This document shows positions 43,275 through 50,927 of a stretch of 64,000 nt of DNA, in pieces. Every line of letters begins with the position of its first letter. Positions within the stretch are counted from its first letter, which is position 1. The DNA is from Oenococcus sp. UCMA 16435 (GTDB lineage: Bacteria; Bacillota; Bacilli; Lactobacillales; Lactobacillaceae). The position numbers were made by a program, and so were the translations under genes. The stretch is taken from contig CP030868.2 of assembly GCA_004010835.2 (NCBI GenBank), positions 1,798,001 to 1,862,000 on the forward strand, read 5' to 3'. The notes beneath the pieces were generated by a model that saw nothing but the letters and a program-made list of their open reading frames with translations, was not told where the DNA came from and did no database searches.

Positions 43275-43892
43275 ATGGGTAAATTAAAAAAAATATTTTC
43301 ATGGATTTTTCCAATAACAATTGGTTTACTACTTGCCTTTGTTATTCACTCTTTTTTTCTAGTTCCAGTTAAAGTCGATGGCGACTCAATGTTGAATAAC
43401 CTTCAAAACGGCCAAAGGGTTTGGGCTTTTAAGCTGGCAAAAATACATCGTGGTTCTGTAATTATTTTCAATGCAAAAAAGGAAGACCCTGGAATTAAAG
43501 CTGGGGAGAAATATTATGTCAAACGCGTAATTGGTGTACCGGGAGATCGAATTAAAGCTTCTAATGGAAATATCTATGTTAATGGCAAAAAGATATCTCA
43601 AACATATATTTCTCGCTACAATCGGACCACGGGAACCGGTAACTGGGACCTGTCATATCTGTCATCCGGAAAATCGACTTTTGTTTCCGGAAAATCTCAT
43701 TGGATTGATGGAAAAGCTATTAAAGTGCCAAAAAATAATTATTTTGTCTTGGGAGACAATCGATCGGTTTCCGAAGACAGCAGGTACTTTGGTTTTGTCA
43801 AGAAAGCACACGTTCTTGGCGTTGCAAAGATTTTCCCTTGGGATGAAAAGTCTAAAGAAGTTAACGATGTTTGGAAGAGCTTTTTTAATTAA
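43275..43892 (+). CDS. lepB: Type I signal peptidase
   Basis: 205 residues with one N-terminal TM helix (~10-30). The motifs are DGDSMLNNL (box B with the catalytic Ser), YYVKRVIGVPGDR (box D with the catalytic Lys) and GDNRSVSEDSR (box E). The enzyme removes signal peptides on the outer face of the membrane. The ribosome site is weak (GAAAGAACGG). It is monocistronic, before the kdsA pair. Confidence 0.94.
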   Translation: MGKLKKIFSWIFPITIGLLLAFVIHSFFLVPVKVDGDSMLNNLQNGQRVWAFKLAKIHRGSVIIFNAKKEDPGIKAGEKYYVKRVIGVPGDRIKASNGNIYVNGKKISQTYISRYNRTTGTGNWDLSYLSSGKSTFVSGKSHWIDGKAIKVPKNNYFVLGDNRSVSEDSRYFGFVKKAHVLGVAKIFPWDEKSKEVNDVWKSFFN

Positions 43893-44109
43893 AAAACGCT
43901 TACTATAAGTTTGTTTACGCTATTAAGGAATGTTCTCTGAGTTTTTGATTCGATTAAATCTTTCGTGAAATCTTATAGTAATTTTGGTAATTTTCATTTA
44001 ATCTTCTTTTTGTATACTTAAAAGAAGCTGACAATTTCATACTGTTTTTCATTTTCCTTCAAATTGAGGGAAAGACCATCTTTTTAAATTTCATTCTAAG
44101 GAGAAGTTT

Positions 44110-44964
44110 ATGACAGAAAAAATTTCTACCGTTTTTAAAGATTTTGCTTTTAAAGATTCGCAATTGACTCTCTTAGCGGGGCCTTGTGCAATTGAATCAT
44201 ATGAAACTTGTGCTCAAGTTGCCGAGAAATTAAAGGAAATTACTGAAAAGCTCCATATTAACTATGTTTTTAAGTCTTCCTTTGATAAAGCCAATCGGAG
44301 TTCTGCTGATTCTGATAGAGGCAGTGGCTTGGAAAAGGGCCTTGCAATTTTGGAAAAAATCAAGAAAGATTTTGATTTACCAATTGTGACAGATGTCCAT
44401 GAATCATACCAATGCGAACCGGTTAGCAAAGTTGCCGATGTTCTTCAAATACCAGCGTTTCTGAGTCGACAAACTGATCTGCTATTGGCGGCTGCGAAAA
44501 CCGGTAAAGTCGTTAACATAAAAAAAGGTCAGTTTATGGCACCTGAAGATATTAAATCAGCGACTTCGAAAATCAATTCTATTACATCAAAGATTTTGAT
44601 AACCGAGCGGGGAAGCAGTTTTGGTTATCATCGTTTAATTGTTGATATGACTGGCTTGATTGAGATGAGGGAAGCTGGTTTTCCAATAATATTTGATGCG
44701 ACCCATTCCGTTCAAGTGCCTAGTGCTCATGGGAATCATTCCGGTGGCAACCGGGATTATGCTTTTCCATTGATGCGAGCTGCTTTGGCAGTTGGTGTTG
44801 ACGGCATTTTCGCGGAAGTTCATCCAAATCCACCAGAGGCTATATCTGATGCTGATAATCAGATATATTTAAGTAAGATTGAACCAATTTTGGAATCCGC
44901 CAATCATATTTATCAGGAACACTTGGATAGCCAAGAAGAGAGGTCTGCTGATGGCCTACTATGA
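44110..44964 (+). CDS. kdsA: 3-deoxy-8-phosphooctulonate (Kdo-8-P) synthase, metal-dependent class
   Basis: 284 residues along the whole KdsA pattern: LLAGPCAIES, FKSSFDKANRSS, TDVHE, LQIPAFLSRQTDLL, KKGQFMAP, ITERGSSFGY, FDATHSVQVP, EVHPNPPEAISDADNQ. The metal ligands Cys26, His199, Glu236 and Asp247 are all present; E. coli KdsA has Asn in place of the Cys, so this is the metal-dependent class. It condenses arabinose-5-phosphate and PEP to Kdo-8-phosphate. This is unexpected in a Gram-positive without lipopolysaccharide. AAGGAG precedes the ATG, and the next gene overlaps by 14 bases. Confidence 0.93.
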   Translation: MTEKISTVFKDFAFKDSQLTLLAGPCAIESYETCAQVAEKLKEITEKLHINYVFKSSFDKANRSSADSDRGSGLEKGLAILEKIKKDFDLPIVTDVHESYQCEPVSKVADVLQIPAFLSRQTDLLLAAAKTGKVVNIKKGQFMAPEDIKSATSKINSITSKILITERGSSFGYHRLIVDMTGLIEMREAGFPIIFDATHSVQVPSAHGNHSGGNRDYAFPLMRAALAVGVDGIFAEVHPNPPEAISDADNQIYLSKIEPILESANHIYQEHLDSQEERSADGLL

Positions 44965-45904
44965 GATCGCTCGTGATGTGTTTGCTAAGGAATCGGCCGA
45001 ACTTGCAAAAGTGGCTGAACGTTTGGATGATAAATTTGATCAATTAGTCACCTTAATTAATGACACGAAAGGCCGAATCGTATTCATTGGGATTGGTAAG
45101 TCACAGATTATTGCCGAAAAAATTTCAGCTTCGCTTTCATCAGTTTCAGTGCATAGCTTTACAGTTGATGCCGGAACAGCTTATCACGGAGATCTTGGTC
45201 GAATATCAGATGAGGATTTATTGATTTTCGTTTCAAATAGCGGAGAAACACAAGAGGTTGTTCAGACTCTTTTTGCATTGCAAACGATTTATCCGAAGGG
45301 TATTAGAAGTGTTTCTCTTACCGGAAATTTGGATTCGACTCTTGCGGTTAACACTGACTTGGCTTTTGATCTTGGCGTCTCCAAAGAAGCTGATATTACA
45401 GGGTTGGCTCCGACTAGCTCAACGACGGCAACACTTGTTTTTGGGGATGCTTTGCTGGCAGCCTTGGAAAAAAGTATTTCCTTTAACAGAAATCAATTTG
45501 CTTTATATCATCCTGGTGGGACAATTGGAAAACTCTTGCTTCAAAGGGTCAAACATGTTATGCACAGCAAAGTTCCTTATGTTAACGAAGATACGCCAAT
45601 TAATGAGGTTATTTATCAAATCAGTGATTATGGTATCGGAATGACTTTGGTTAAAGATAAAAACAGTGGCAAGGCAATTGGAATTGTCACCGATGGAGAT
45701 ATTAGAAAAAAATTCTTATCGGTCCAATCTGTTAAAAAATCAGTTGCCTCTGATTATATGACGAAGGGCTTTGTCAGTATTAATCAGGAAAGAAGGAATA
45801 GAACTGCCTGGCAGTTAATGGCCAATCATGGAATTTCGAACTTAGTTGTTATCGATAATGATGAAAATGTGGTTGGTGTTGCAACCGTCCATGATGTTTT
45901 GTAA
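44951..45904 (+). CDS. kdsD: Arabinose-5-phosphate isomerase (SIS + two CBS domains)
   Basis: 317 residues. The SIS domain (residues ~30-165) has GIGKSQIIAEKISASLSSV, HGDLGRI and FVSNSGET, and is followed by two CBS domains (~195-317), the standard KdsD layout and length. It converts ribulose-5-phosphate to arabinose-5-phosphate, the substrate of KdsA. ATG 44951 lies inside the end of kdsA after GAAGAGAGG, so the two are translationally coupled. It supplies the first step, and no kdsB or kdsC lies in the window. Confidence 0.92.
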   Translation: MAYYEIARDVFAKESAELAKVAERLDDKFDQLVTLINDTKGRIVFIGIGKSQIIAEKISASLSSVSVHSFTVDAGTAYHGDLGRISDEDLLIFVSNSGETQEVVQTLFALQTIYPKGIRSVSLTGNLDSTLAVNTDLAFDLGVSKEADITGLAPTSSTTATLVFGDALLAALEKSISFNRNQFALYHPGGTIGKLLLQRVKHVMHSKVPYVNEDTPINEVIYQISDYGIGMTLVKDKNSGKAIGIVTDGDIRKKFLSVQSVKKSVASDYMTKGFVSINQERRNRTAWQLMANHGISNLVVIDNDENVVGVATVHDVL

Positions 45905-45947
45905 AAAACTTATAGGAAAAATGATTTTTAAGATATCTATTTGGAGG

Positions 45948-45976
45948 GACTAATCTTGTGATTAGTTCTTTTTTTA
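45948..45976 (+). terminator. Terminator after kdsD
   Basis: GACTAATC, loop TTGT, GATTAGTTC and a long T-run. Confidence 0.83.
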
Positions 45977-46150
45977 AACTTTTTTGACTGGTCTCTTATT
46001 TTCTAAATTTTAATACTTATGGTCTTTACTCTTTTTGATTAATGTTATATATGATGTGTATGTATGGATTGCGAAGCTTGATCCTGAAATAAATTCGAGC
46101 TGAAGTAAGTTTATTGATGGCTTATATTTTAAAAAAAGAGGTTACGATAT

Positions 46151-47236
46151 ATGAAACCTGAAAATATTATTAGTTCAAAAAAATCTATCGATGTTATTGA
46201 TTCTGAAAAAATTCCCAGCGAAATGCGGGCATGGGAAGTGGTTAACCCGGCACCAATTGATAGTTCGCCTTCTCCGATACGCTTTACAAAGCGTTCCGTT
46301 CCAGTTCCCAAGACTGGCGAAGTGCTGGTTCGGGTTATTTCATGTGGCATTTGCCATACTGATCTTCATGTTACCGAAGGCGATCTTCTGGTTCACCACT
46401 CTCATGTAATTCCTGGACATGAAATTATTGGTCGGGTCGTAGCTAACGGCCCGCAAACAAATCGTTTTAATTTAGGCGATCGAATTGGAGTCCCTTGGCT
46501 GCGTTGGACCTGTGGCGTATGCGCTTATTGTCGGGCCGGCAAAGAAAATCTTTGTCCTAATTCGCTTTACACCGGTTGGGATCACGATGGTGGCTATGCT
46601 GAATATGTGACTGTTCCTGAAGGATTTGCATACCGAATTCCTGCTGAGTTCAACTCAATAACCGCTGCACCGCTCCTTTGTGCCGGTATCATCGGTTATC
46701 ATGCCTTTCGTCGGGCAAACATTCCGGCCGGTGGCCGCTTAGGCCTATATGGTTTTGGCGGATCGGCTCATTTAGCAGCCCAGATTGCCATTGCTCAGGG
46801 TATTGAAGTTCATGTGTTCACTCGTGGCAAAGATGCACAGCGTTTTGCTTTGGAACTTGGTGCAGCCTCGGCACAGGGTGTTTATGATTTGCCACCATTT
46901 CCTTTGGATTCATCGATCCTTTTTGCTCCGGTTGGCGATATTGTGCCAAAAGCTCTTGAAGGCTTGGCGGCTGGAGGAACATTAGCTCTTGCTGGTATTC
47001 ATTTAACTGATGTTCCTTCACTTAATTATCAGAAACATTTGTTTCATGAAAAAGTTCTTACGAGTGTTGAGAGCAATACTCGCCGCGATGGCGAAGAATT
47101 CTTAACTTTGGCCGATCGGTTGAAGATTCATCCAAAGACCACTGAATATCCCTTTGAACATGCCGACCAAGCGCTTCGCCATTTGTCGCATGGCGATATG
47201 CAGGGCGCCTGTGTTTTACGAATTAGTGAAGGCTAA
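46151..47236 (+). CDS. Zinc-dependent alcohol dehydrogenase (MDR family)
   Basis: 361 residues. The catalytic zinc ligands lie in SCGICHTDLH and GHEIIGRVV. The structural zinc lobe is CGVCAYCRAGKENLC (four Cys), and the Rossmann motif is GLYGFGGSAHLAAQIA. It belongs to the AdhP-like branch that often has an acyl-independent alcohol/aldehyde range. It starts with about 25 extra residues before the usual N-terminus. A GAGGTTACGATAT stretch gives a moderate ribosome site. It is monocistronic. Confidence 0.9.
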   Translation: MKPENIISSKKSIDVIDSEKIPSEMRAWEVVNPAPIDSSPSPIRFTKRSVPVPKTGEVLVRVISCGICHTDLHVTEGDLLVHHSHVIPGHEIIGRVVANGPQTNRFNLGDRIGVPWLRWTCGVCAYCRAGKENLCPNSLYTGWDHDGGYAEYVTVPEGFAYRIPAEFNSITAAPLLCAGIIGYHAFRRANIPAGGRLGLYGFGGSAHLAAQIAIAQGIEVHVFTRGKDAQRFALELGAASAQGVYDLPPFPLDSSILFAPVGDIVPKALEGLAAGGTLALAGIHLTDVPSLNYQKHLFHEKVLTSVESNTRRDGEEFLTLADRLKIHPKTTEYPFEHADQALRHLSHGDMQGACVLRISEG

Positions 47237-47405
47237 ATCATCGCTTGAGAAAATTATTAATTAAAAAATCGAATGAATCAACAGCTCGAATATTCATAAA
47301 AGGTGTACTAATGCTATAACTAGTATGCATTATATAGGTGGATGGGTTATTCTTGTGATATCGCAATCTAATTTTTGATTAATAATCTTTATGGAGCTAA
47401 TTAGC

Positions 47406-48035
47406 ATGGATTTTACAAAACGACAAACTCACATTATTAATATGCTGAAACAAACTAGTCCGTTAACGAGCGAAAAAATTGCAGGTAATCTGGATCTTAG
47501 TGTTTCGACCATTAGACCGGATTTGCGTTTCCTAACCTCGGTCGAAATTTTGAACGCCCGTCCAAAAGTAGGTTACGAGTTTAAAGGCAATCAATTATTG
47601 GACTTTGATTATGATCGCGTTTATAAAACGCCTATTTCAGACATTTTGCTTCCAACAACTGAAATCAAGGCTAACGACACTCTTCAAGCTGCTGTCAGCA
47701 AACTATTTTTAAAAGATGTTGGTTCACTATACGTAGTGAACGAAAAAGGCGACTTGGTCGGTTTGATTTCTCGAAAAGACCTTTTACGAGCCAGCCTGAA
47801 TAATAGCAATGTTCAATCGATGATGGCCAGTATTGTAATGACGAGAATGCCGAATATTATTACAGCGACTCCTGATATGTCGGTTATTGCAGCTGGCCGA
47901 CTGTTGTTGCTTCATAAGGTTGATTCTTTGCCTGTGGTGGAAAAGAAATCGAGCCGTCACGCGATTGGGAAAATAACCAAAAACAGAATTTTCCAACATT
48001 TCATCGAAATTGGTATGAAAACAACAAATAACTGA
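47406..48035 (+). CDS. CcpN/YqzB-like regulator (HTH + two CBS domains)
   Basis: 209 residues. The N-terminal HTH (LTSEKIAGNLDLSVSTIRPD) is followed by two CBS domains (~75-200). This is the layout of CcpN, the B. subtilis repressor of gluconeogenic genes and sRNA SR1. ATG 47406 is chosen because GGAG lies nine bases before it; ATG 47391 would overlap that site. In many Firmicutes it sits beside a PPDK regulatory protein and ppdK; here ppdK follows directly and no regulatory-protein gene is between them. Confidence 0.87.
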   Translation: MDFTKRQTHIINMLKQTSPLTSEKIAGNLDLSVSTIRPDLRFLTSVEILNARPKVGYEFKGNQLLDFDYDRVYKTPISDILLPTTEIKANDTLQAAVSKLFLKDVGSLYVVNEKGDLVGLISRKDLLRASLNNSNVQSMMASIVMTRMPNIITATPDMSVIAAGRLLLLHKVDSLPVVEKKSSRHAIGKITKNRIFQHFIEIGMKTTNN

Positions 48036-48056
48036 ATTTAAATTTAAATAAAAAAC

Positions 48057-48080
48057 GGGACGTGTTTTGTTCCTTTTTTT
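48057..48080 (+). terminator. Terminator of the CcpN-like gene
   Basis: GGGAC/GTTCC hairpin and seven T. Confidence 0.68.
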
Positions 48081-48198
48081 GTAATATTTATAATATTATT
48101 TTTTATAAAATACGTCATATTTAAAAAGATCATAAAAGCAATAGCTATGTTCTTTTGAAAGGCAAAGCCGGTTTACGGGCATTTATATGTAAATTTAA

Positions 48199-48234
48199 TG
48201 TAAGCGCTTGCTATTTTTTAAAATATATTATACA
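48199..48234 (+). promoter_or_regulatory. cre site and promoter of ppdK
   Basis: TGTAAGCGCTTGCT (48199-48212) is a near-perfect cre. The -35-like TTGCTA (48208-48213) overlaps it, and TATACA (48229-48234) is a -10 candidate. Glucose repression of ppdK would follow. Confidence 0.62.
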
Positions 48235-48284
48235 TTATATATCGAACCAATAATACGTACTATTTGTTCAAAAGGAGCGAATAT

Positions 48285-50927
48285 ATGACTAAACAAATAT
48301 ATGACTTTTCAGAAGGCAATATGAAAATGCGTGACTTGTTGGGAGGAAAAGGCGCCAATTTGGCCGAAATGACTAATATGGGTCTGCCGGTTCCACATGG
48401 TTTTACCATTACAACCGAAGCGTGCCATGATTACCAACGAAGACAGGAATTAAGCGATCATCTTTTGGCGGAACTTAATCAGGCACTCAGTGCTTTGAGC
48501 ACACTAACCGACAAACAATTTAACGGATCCAATCATCCGCTGCTGGTTTCGGTTCGTTCGGGCGCGGCTATTTCGATGCCTGGAATGATGGACACAATTT
48601 TAAATATTGGCTTAAATGATCAAACTGTTCTTGCACTGGCAGAATTAACCGGTAATGAAAGATTTGCTTATGATAGCTATCGGCGTTTACTCGCTATGTT
48701 TGGAAATGTTGTCTATGGAATCCCAGAAGATTCCTTTGATCAAATATTGACAGATGCAAAAATTGTCAATAATTATCAATCTGACCTGGATTTAACAGTT
48801 GATGATTTAAAAGAAATTGTAGCCAAGTTCAAGAATCTTTATCAGACTTCCGACCATGGCGATTTTCCTCAGGACCCAAAAGAACAGCTATTAGCAGCGG
48901 TTAATTCGGTTTTTGATTCTTGGAATAATCATCGGGCACAAATTTACCGTCGCCAAAATAATATCTCAGAGAATCTTGGAACTGCAGTAAATATTCAAGA
49001 AATGGTTTTTGGCAACTATGGGGAAGATTCAGGGACAGGAGTTGCTTTTACTAGAAATCCATCAACCGGGGAGGAAGGCTTATTTGGAGAATATTTGCTT
49101 AATGCTCAAGGAGAGGATGTCGTCGCGGGCATTAGGACACCAAAATCTGTTGCTGTTTTAAAAGAATCGATGCCGGTATTATATGAGCAATTATTGGATA
49201 TCGCAAAAAAACTCGAAAATCATTATCGTGATATGCAGGACTTGGAATTTACGATCGAGAACAGCAAAATGTATTTGCTTCAGACCCGTAGCGGTAAACG
49301 AACGCCAACTGCAGCTGTAAAAATTGCTGTCGATCAAGTTAACGAAGGTTTGGTTAGCAAAAAAGAGGCTTTGCTTAGAGTTGAACCCGAGTCTGTTTCA
49401 AAAATGCTTCATCCAGAATTTGAAAAGAATGATCTTCAACAGCATGATATCTTAACAACTGGGTTACCGGCTTCTCCAGGTGCTGCAACCGGACAAGTTT
49501 ATTTCACTGCTGAAGATGCAAAGCTGGCTAGTGACAATAATAAAAAAGTTGTTTTGATGCGTGCTGATACCTCTCCGGAAGATATCGAGGGGATGATTGT
49601 TAGTCAGGCAATTGTTACTTCACGTGGAGGCATGACATCACATGCAGCCGTTGTAGCGCGTGGGATGGCTTCGACCGGTGTTGTTGGAGCCCACGAACTG
49701 GAAGTCGATTATCAAAAGAAGGTTGCAAAAGTGAAGGATCGGTTGATTCACGAAGGCGATTGGGTTTCGGTCGACGGGACAACCGGGAATTTGTATTTAG
49801 GCAGAATCAAGACTACTGATGCAACGATTAGGGGTGAACTTTCTGTGTTGCTTGCATGGGCAAAATCAATTAGTAAAATGGGTGTTTATACAAACGCTGA
49901 TACACCGAAAGATTTTCAAAAAGCTTTGGACTTTGATGCCGATGGTATTGGTTTGACACGAACCGAGCACATGTTTTTCAAACCGGAACGCTTGTTACAA
50001 ATGCGCCGTTTGATTTTAGCTGAAGACGCCGAAGGCCGGAAGGATCCTCTGAAAAAACTTTTGCAAATGCAACAGGGTGATTTTTATGAAATTTACAAAT
50101 TAGCCGGCGACAAAGAGGTTACGATCAGATTATTGGATCCACCGCTTCATGAGTTCCTGCCTCACGATGAAAAGGAAATTCAAGCTGTTTCCGAACAAAC
50201 GCAAATTAGTTCGGAACGACTCAAAGACCGGATTGATTCCTTAAAAGAATTGAACCCTATGCTTGGGCATCGTGGAGATCGTCTGGCCGTTACTTTTCCG
50301 GATATTTACGAGATGCAGGTTCAGGCAATTATGAATGCTGTCGTTAGACTTCATAACGAAGGAATTGAGGTTCAACCTCATATTATGATCCCATTAACCG
50401 ATTCGAAACAGGAAATGGCCTGGGTTCGGAAACTGGTTGTTAAACAAATTGATCAAATATCTGCAGAAAATGATATTGCTGTTAAATATACAGTTGGAAC
50501 AATGATGGAAATGCCACGTGCGTGTGTGACTGCTGATGCAATCGCTGAATGTTCTGATTTCTTCAGTTTTGGTACTAATGATTTAACACAATTGACTTTT
50601 GGATATTCTCGAGATGATGTCGGTTCTTTTATGCCGGCATATATTAAAGAAGGAATTCTACCTGTTGATCCGTTCCAGACTGTCGATGTCGAGGGTGTTG
50701 GTGAACTGATGAAAATTGCCGTTATCAAGGGACGCAAAACGAAAAAGGATTTGCCAATCGGTGTCTGTGGTGAAGTTGGTGGCGATCCAAAATCAATCGA
50801 ATTTTTTGAGGAAATTGGTGTAACTTATGTTTCTTGTTCACCATATCGAGTACCAGTTGCACGTCTGGCCGCTGCACAAGCACATATCCGGAGTGTTTCG
50901 AGTGAACCTCAATTGGAAAAAGTTTAA
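48285..50927 (+). CDS. ppdK: Pyruvate, phosphate dikinase
   Basis: 880 residues in the usual order. The N-terminal nucleotide-binding domain begins GGKGANLAEMTNMGLPVPHG. The central phosphohistidine domain has SRGGMTSHAAVVARG (His453). The C-terminal TIM barrel has GVCGEVGGDP with catalytic Cys828. It interconverts pyruvate, ATP and phosphate with PEP, AMP and PPi. ATG 48285 lies nine bases after AAAGGAG. Its neighbour (CcpN-like) and the cre site place it in gluconeogenesis or PEP supply. PEP is also the co-substrate of KdsA. Confidence 0.95.
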   Translation: MTKQIYDFSEGNMKMRDLLGGKGANLAEMTNMGLPVPHGFTITTEACHDYQRRQELSDHLLAELNQALSALSTLTDKQFNGSNHPLLVSVRSGAAISMPGMMDTILNIGLNDQTVLALAELTGNERFAYDSYRRLLAMFGNVVYGIPEDSFDQILTDAKIVNNYQSDLDLTVDDLKEIVAKFKNLYQTSDHGDFPQDPKEQLLAAVNSVFDSWNNHRAQIYRRQNNISENLGTAVNIQEMVFGNYGEDSGTGVAFTRNPSTGEEGLFGEYLLNAQGEDVVAGIRTPKSVAVLKESMPVLYEQLLDIAKKLENHYRDMQDLEFTIENSKMYLLQTRSGKRTPTAAVKIAVDQVNEGLVSKKEALLRVEPESVSKMLHPEFEKNDLQQHDILTTGLPASPGAATGQVYFTAEDAKLASDNNKKVVLMRADTSPEDIEGMIVSQAIVTSRGGMTSHAAVVARGMASTGVVGAHELEVDYQKKVAKVKDRLIHEGDWVSVDGTTGNLYLGRIKTTDATIRGELSVLLAWAKSISKMGVYTNADTPKDFQKALDFDADGIGLTRTEHMFFKPERLLQMRRLILAEDAEGRKDPLKKLLQMQQGDFYEIYKLAGDKEVTIRLLDPPLHEFLPHDEKEIQAVSEQTQISSERLKDRIDSLKELNPMLGHRGDRLAVTFPDIYEMQVQAIMNAVVRLHNEGIEVQPHIMIPLTDSKQEMAWVRKLVVKQIDQISAENDIAVKYTVGTMMEMPRACVTADAIAECSDFFSFGTNDLTQLTFGYSRDDVGSFMPAYIKEGILPVDPFQTVDVEGVGELMKIAVIKGRKTKKDLPIGVCGEVGGDPKSIEFFEEIGVTYVSCSPYRVPVARLAAAQAHIRSVSSEPQLEKV

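Follow-up and report, generated by a model that had tools for sequence, protein, structure and literature searches.

The stretch of DNA analysed here (the window; 64,000 nt) belongs to a genome of Oenococcus sp. UCMA 16435 of 2.03 Mb in two contigs. It carries two adjoining genes, kdsA and kdsD, whose features are as follows:

43991..44018, + strand: promoter-like block, TTTTCA, 16 nt, TATACT (promoter scan and Oenococcus alignment)
44098..44103, + strand: AAGGAG, ribosome-binding site of kdsA, 6 nt 5' of the ATG (read from the sequence)
44110..44964, + strand: kdsA, 3-deoxy-8-phosphooctulonate (Kdo-8-phosphate) synthase of the metal-dependent class, 284 aa (family models)
44951..44964, + strand: 14-nt overlap of kdsA and kdsD, candidate for translational coupling (direct reading)
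44951..45904, + strand: kdsD, arabinose-5-phosphate isomerase of the KpsF/GutQ type with a SIS domain and two CBS domains, 317 aa (family models and Pfam)
45943..45972, + strand: terminator-like hairpin of 13 pairs followed by a T run, -13.8 kcal/mol

The initial annotation of two intact genes overlapping by 14 nt was confirmed in coordinates and reading frames, the start of kdsD being the ATG at 44951, inside kdsA. The G+C content of the pair (39.3%) is close to that of windows of equal size (mean 36.3%, sd 4.0), and the pair is thus not foreign-looking. The promoter scan alone proves nothing, since it returned 7 sites around the pair against 6.9 expected. Within the promoter-like site, ATTTAATCT and TGTATA are alike in the four aligned Oenococcus upstream regions, and the remaining upstream sequence has mostly diverged, least of all between the window and its closest relative (L135). 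No second copy of the block was found in the window with a search pattern derived from the site itself. The downstream hairpin had been described as a strong terminator; this is upheld only in part, since the 13 pairs and the following U run are there, but 13 out of 200 shuffled sequences folded equally well (z = -1.66) and the hairpin is absent from the output of the consensus terminator scan. Another hairpin, with a T-rich tail, lies between the promoter-like site and the start codon of kdsA (44052-44074) and is also visible by eye in L135. No RNA family scored above threshold in the region 43880-46160.

Identity of the two enzymes

KdsA exceeded the cut-offs of TIGR01362 (365.2 bits, cut-off 314) and NF003543 (385.6 bits, cut-off 242), and did not reach that of a third model, NF009109 (285.9, cut-off 457). 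It contains the Pfam domain DAHP_synth_1, and its best PDB relative is 1fwn, a 2-dehydro-3-deoxyphosphooctonate aldolase (E 8.8e-86) that heads the KDO8P synthase group. Its closest named relatives are both from Oenococcus, O. sicerae (87% identity) and O. kitaharae (83%), and another relative is 95% identical. In an alignment of 106 KdsA sequences, comprising 32 from lactic acid bacteria (LAB) and 74 others chosen as the best among the matches listed, the residues C26, H199, E236 and D247 are identical throughout, which upholds the assignment of these four positions in the initial annotation; we take them to be the metal ligands of the metal-dependent class. K55, K60, A61, N62, R63, K138 and R167 are likewise identical in all 106 sequences. 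Position 64 is serine in LAB and mostly threonine elsewhere, position 65 is mostly serine, and the KANRSS motif, which presumably takes part with other residues in the binding of phosphoenolpyruvate (PEP) and arabinose-5-phosphate, is kept in the LAB proteins. The predicted activity of KdsA is the condensation of arabinose-5-phosphate with PEP.

The proposed architecture of KdsD was borne out by Pfam matches to a SIS domain and two CBS stretches and by a score above the cut-off of the KpsF/GutQ subfamily model TIGR00393 (224.4 bits, cut-off 203.7). The protein is filed in this subfamily and not as an E. coli-type equivalog, because it remained below the cut-offs of both GutQ/KdsD models (NF008141, 223 against 505; NF008581, 207 against 481). 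Its PDB relatives are 5uqi, a phosphosugar isomerase and the nearest of them, 2xhz, 3k2v and 3fna. Residues K50, E102, E146 and H187, each conserved in at least 90% of 31 LAB sequences and of 36 others, were matched to K59, E111, E152 and H193, assumed here to be the active-site residues of the E. coli enzyme in that numbering. The same comparison revealed changes fixed or nearly fixed in LAB, including C148D, close to an active-site glutamate, R253K, which falls in the CBS pair within the TDGD[IL]R motif, and L282R.

The initial annotation had considered that KdsA might act as another DAHP-like synthase. That KdsA stands in for a DAHP synthase otherwise lacking from the shikimate pathway would agree with profile searches of the window's genome, which found neither another PF00793 protein nor any PF01474 protein, yet two chorismate synthases. 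However, DHQ synthase (PF01761) is absent from all five KdsA-bearing Oenococcus genomes examined, three of which also lack chorismate synthase, so that DAHP would lead nowhere and KdsA fills no gap in the pathway. Moreover, Leuconostoc gelidum (G022) possesses KdsA together with a separate DAHP-synthase-like match, and the pairing with kdsD points to arabinose-5-phosphate. The absence of DHQ synthase, the preserved KANRSS motif and the scores of DAHP-synthase models far below cut-off (119.7 against 267.75 for TIGR01361) led to the rejection of this role, which is hardly credible.

Two aroC-aroA-aroK sets occur in one genome (L171 and L172; C1, 74-92 kb and 1244-1262 kb). An MFS protein is encoded upstream of both; aroK is in both sets a best match below cut-off, and the first set adjoins trpD and other trp genes, the latter named by eye. 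The proximity of both sets to MFS transporters suggests shikimate uptake and, given that no DAHP synthase and no DHQ synthase were found, Oenococcus may live on imported shikimate. One study of O. oeni describes the over-expression of chorismate synthase and shikimate kinase after acid shock (PMC5572241).

Distribution, context and evolution of the gene pair

The pair is not special to the window's genome. Of 397 Lactobacillaceae genomes drawn evenly from a larger group, 30 had a KdsA above the TIGR01362 cut-off; these represent 8 of 40 genera, and the other 367 genomes gave no match. A sample of 398 Bacilli genomes, drawn in the same way, contained five carriers, the window's genome included. 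Named carriers are Oenococcus, Leuconostoc, Weissella, Lentilactobacillus, Ligilactobacillus ubinensis and Schleiferilactobacillus; ten named LAB loci coincide with ten of the 30 genomes, so that the two sets cannot be counted as independent. Within Oenococcus, five of seven genomes encode KdsA, and the two without it are only 65% and 68% complete. With at most six candidates per genome scored, the KdsD model (E 1e-25) matched 40 of the 397 Lactobacillaceae genomes, namely the 30 with KdsA and ten others, in which no more than the SIS part is matched, roughly the first 155-165 of the model's 268 positions. No full-length KdsD of the KpsF type was matched outside the 30 KdsA genomes in this sample, and two of the 30 gave partial matches (G360, positions 30-267; G370, positions 1-242). 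Among 50,697 phage records, four matched KdsA, all with less than 60% identity, and none was a named LAB phage.

The initial annotation had also held that the pair would not be new if it proved widespread among other Lactobacillales and its product there were known. It does recur in other genera, but no known product, and no account of the function of kdsA-kdsD in LAB, was found in the literature searched (titles and abstract openings, mostly without subscription journals). A term search of papers on O. oeni stress, on the pan-genome, on O. kitaharae and on Leuconostoc metabolism likewise returned none of the chosen Kdo terms.

The gene order is strictly conserved, kdsD following kdsA in 33 of 33 LAB loci (30 genomes, one of them represented twice as L037 and L141, and two plasmids). 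Counting each genome once together with the plasmids (32 loci), the genes overlap through an ATG in the kdsD frame in 31, by 14 nt in 11 loci and by 17 nt in 20, and in some of these 31 a second ATG in that frame would give an overlap of 20-35 nt. The exception is L159 of genome G360, where kdsA is intact, the kdsD frame is interrupted with a short ORF between the genes, and the first kdsD start is found 180 nt downstream of the kdsA stop codon. By genus, G360 is grouped with Leuconostoc gelidum.

The flanking genes, by contrast with the pair, vary between genera. In flanking stretches that extended at most about 10 kb and were in some cases truncated, no family besides kdsA and kdsD occurred in more than 10 of the 33 loci, and no polysaccharide family common to the genera was seen among the recurring neighbour families. 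The proposed link to the neighbouring gene of pyruvate phosphate dikinase (PPDK), whose product PEP is a substrate of KdsA, is not conserved: a family model confirms the PPDK gene at 48264-50927, but PPDK neighbours the pair in just 3 of 33 loci, each of them from Oenococcus. A CcpN-like regulator (200 bits, below the cut-off of 260) precedes PPDK in the window (47391-50927); CcpN occurs near the pair in 4 of 33 loci, and the CcpN-PPDK unit was seen near it only in Oenococcus loci. GlsB-like genes neighbour the pair in 8 of the 33 loci, and a link to general stress genes is a tentative lead.

Two mobilizable plasmids, of Leuconostoc citreum and L. mesenteroides, also carry the pair. On both Leuconostoc plasmids (L133 and L134), kdsA-kdsD lies beside an IS30 element, and a stress block of SDR, CorA, DUF1345, Asp23/Gls24, AmaP and GlsB genes, common to the two, is located near the pair.

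The dN/dS ratio (Nei-Gojobori, both genes) was 0.017-0.102 in the 18 of 20 comparisons yielding a value, with dS saturated in two comparisons and above 1 in several others, and with some frames beginning upstream of the likely start. As judged by these ratios, kdsA-kdsD is under purifying selection. In the tree of the 106 KdsA sequences, the 32 LAB proteins form one side of a single branch (support 100/99) with a stem of 0.73 changes per column, although other long branches meet next to this clade and the outside sequences are the best among the matches listed. The KdsA proteins of four other Bacilli fall outside the LAB clade, scattered among the non-LAB sequences, and the nearest non-LAB protein among the matches listed is 66% identical (Paludibacter).

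Comparison with known Kdo systems

Lactic acid bacteria are not expected to have an outer membrane. With the Gram-negative route KdsD-KdsA-KdsC-KdsB-WaaA they share the first two enzymes, with intact domain architecture and intact KdsA active-site residues. The LAB genes differ in overlapping as a unit of their own and in lacking recognised partners for the later steps. PF02348, the family that holds KdsB, had no match in seven KdsA genomes, including the whole genome of the window. Over all 30 KdsA genomes it produced 15 weak matches (19.6-25.5 bits), with 9 genomes above the cut-off of 22.6; fourteen are GlmU-like, three having been scanned as GlmU and 11 more aligning to that GlmU over about 450 residues, and the last is IspD/TarI-like, being nearest to the models of IspD and ribitol-5-phosphate cytidylyltransferase and just below their cut-offs. 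No CMP-Kdo synthetase (KdsB) was found by PF02348 in any of the 30 KdsA-positive Lactobacillaceae genomes. For KdsC (TIGR01670), none of seven genomes had a match above cut-off; weak matches occurred in all seven, the best with 37 bits against 107, and one of them, when scanned, proved to be a Cof-type HAD protein. The absence of kdsB and kdsC, first noted for the window, therefore extends to the whole genome, and the end of the pathway is open as proposed, without a recognisable KdsB in 30 genomes and KdsC in seven. Since neither is recognisable, the product is not CMP-Kdo made by the usual route, nor lipopolysaccharide (LPS).

The CBS pairs of such isomerases bind CMP-Kdo. The changes C148D and R253K fixed in the LAB proteins could alter the substrate or ligand, though a clade with so long a stem would show such changes anyway. 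A loss of feedback by CMP-Kdo would fit the absence of KdsB, as would clade-specific drift.

Kdo genes with kdsA near kdsD are also found in some other Gram-positive Bacilli. In the four genomes outside the Lactobacillaceae (L191-L194), kdsA has three neighbours within about 3 kb, namely a gene for a PF02348 protein, one resembling kdsD and one for a KdsC-like HAD protein; the first and the last of these, and the position of KdsA outside the LAB clade, set them apart from the LAB pair. The cytidylyltransferase of L194 passes the KdsB cut-off and that of L191 is a strong PF02348 match; in L192 (11824-13116) and L193 (7376-8668) it forms one protein of 431 aa with an RraA-like domain and is a candidate KdsB only. 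The phosphatase of L191 passes TIGR01670, and those of L192-L194 were called KdsC-like by size and a Hydrolase_3 match. ABC-2 permease genes are located near the kds clusters of L191, L193 and L194, and none was seen at L192; L191 also has a Capsule_synth gene and ABC-exporter genes.

An arabinose-5-phosphate isomerase has reportedly been described from another Gram-positive bacterium, Clostridium tetani, by Cech et al. in 2017 (J Bacteriol 199:e00246-17); in LAB, by contrast, the full-length isomerase was found only beside Kdo-8-phosphate synthase. Among 70 loci of Bacteroidales and other phyla (L040-L109), some incomplete at their ends, 34 have a KdsD-like match listed, 26 of them no more than 100 nt downstream of kdsA. 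The KdsD proteins of this group share 34-41% identity with the window's KdsD, and the KdsA proteins of LAB form a separate, long-stemmed clade.

Possible role of the pair

The identity of the two enzymes and the conservation of the pair are well supported by the comparisons above. It is probable, on the sequence evidence, that kdsA and kdsD constitute a working module leading from ribulose-5-phosphate to Kdo-8-phosphate and ending before nucleotide activation, which is maintained by selection and goes back to what was probably a single entry. In this two-enzyme module, probably translationally coupled, KdsD would convert ribulose-5-phosphate to arabinose-5-phosphate, and KdsA would condense the latter with PEP to Kdo-8-phosphate and phosphate. 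The module would have entered the Lactobacillaceae probably once, travelled at times on plasmids, and been kept by selection. Its most plausible fate is that a soluble acidic C8 metabolite would itself be the useful product, either Kdo-8-phosphate or the Kdo that a general Cof-type HAD phosphatase might release from it. The lack of a KdsB homologue would still be compatible with an unrelated activating enzyme. We tentatively suggest that this LAB branch might make Kdo-8-phosphate or Kdo without a need for CMP-Kdo and outside LPS or capsule, the product being used as such or through an as yet unknown activating enzyme.

It is rather unlikely that the pair supplies Kdo for an envelope glycan or glycolipid, with an activating enzyme unrelated to KdsB and a general phosphatase in place of KdsC. 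The retention of both genes implies a demand for the product, and in the four other Bacilli kdsA is accompanied by genes for a cytidylyltransferase of PF02348, for a KdsD-like protein and for a HAD protein resembling KdsC, with Capsule_synth and ABC-exporter genes in L191 and a nearby ABC-2 permease gene in L193 and L194. The closest published precedent is a Kdo island of Bacillus coahuilensis m2-6 that comprises kdsA, kdsB, kdsC, kdsD and kpsC and that its authors called unexpected for Firmicutes (PMC4744853). However, the four Bacilli lie apart from the LAB clade in the KdsA tree, no KdsB was found in any of the 30 genomes, and no polysaccharide family shared by the genera was seen among the recurring neighbours. 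A Kdo polymer of the usual kind, the product envisaged in the initial annotation, is disfavoured by the same absence of KdsB and by the lack of any third family in more than 10 of 33 loci.

A tie to the phosphoketolase (obligate heterofermentative) lifestyle, in which the pair would drain ribulose-5-phosphate and PEP or recycle phosphate and Kdo-8-phosphate would be a waste or buffer, is improbable. 6-Phosphofructokinase (PFK) is indeed absent from 25 of the 30 KdsA genomes, against 14 of 28 KdsA-negative genomes of the family, but those 14 lack PFK without having KdsA, 23 of the 25 come from three genera, so that relatedness may explain the count, and by genus the association is weak (five of the eight KdsA genera without PFK, three with it). 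Even less probable is that the pair lacks a function and persists as a selfish or neutral remnant on plasmids. The two mobilizable Leuconostoc plasmids, the patchy distribution and the one interrupted kdsD might be read in that way, but dN/dS values of 0.02-0.10 for both genes, the presence of the pair in five of seven Oenococcus genomes, with incompleteness of the other two, and the promoter block conserved in Oenococcus all argue for a retained function. The module producing Kdo-8-phosphate short of nucleotide activation thus remains the preferred reading.

Kdo is widely regarded as a mark of the Gram-negative envelope. PMC4744853 treats it likewise. The occurrence in food bacteria of a KdsA-KdsD pair that is conserved, selected, sometimes plasmid-borne and without a recognisable KdsB calls for a use of Kdo-8-phosphate other than that of the textbook. 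The pair is accessible to testing in species that are both tractable and harmless, for example of Leuconostoc, and metagenomic calls of 'LPS biosynthesis' made from kdsA alone can stem from lactic acid bacteria.
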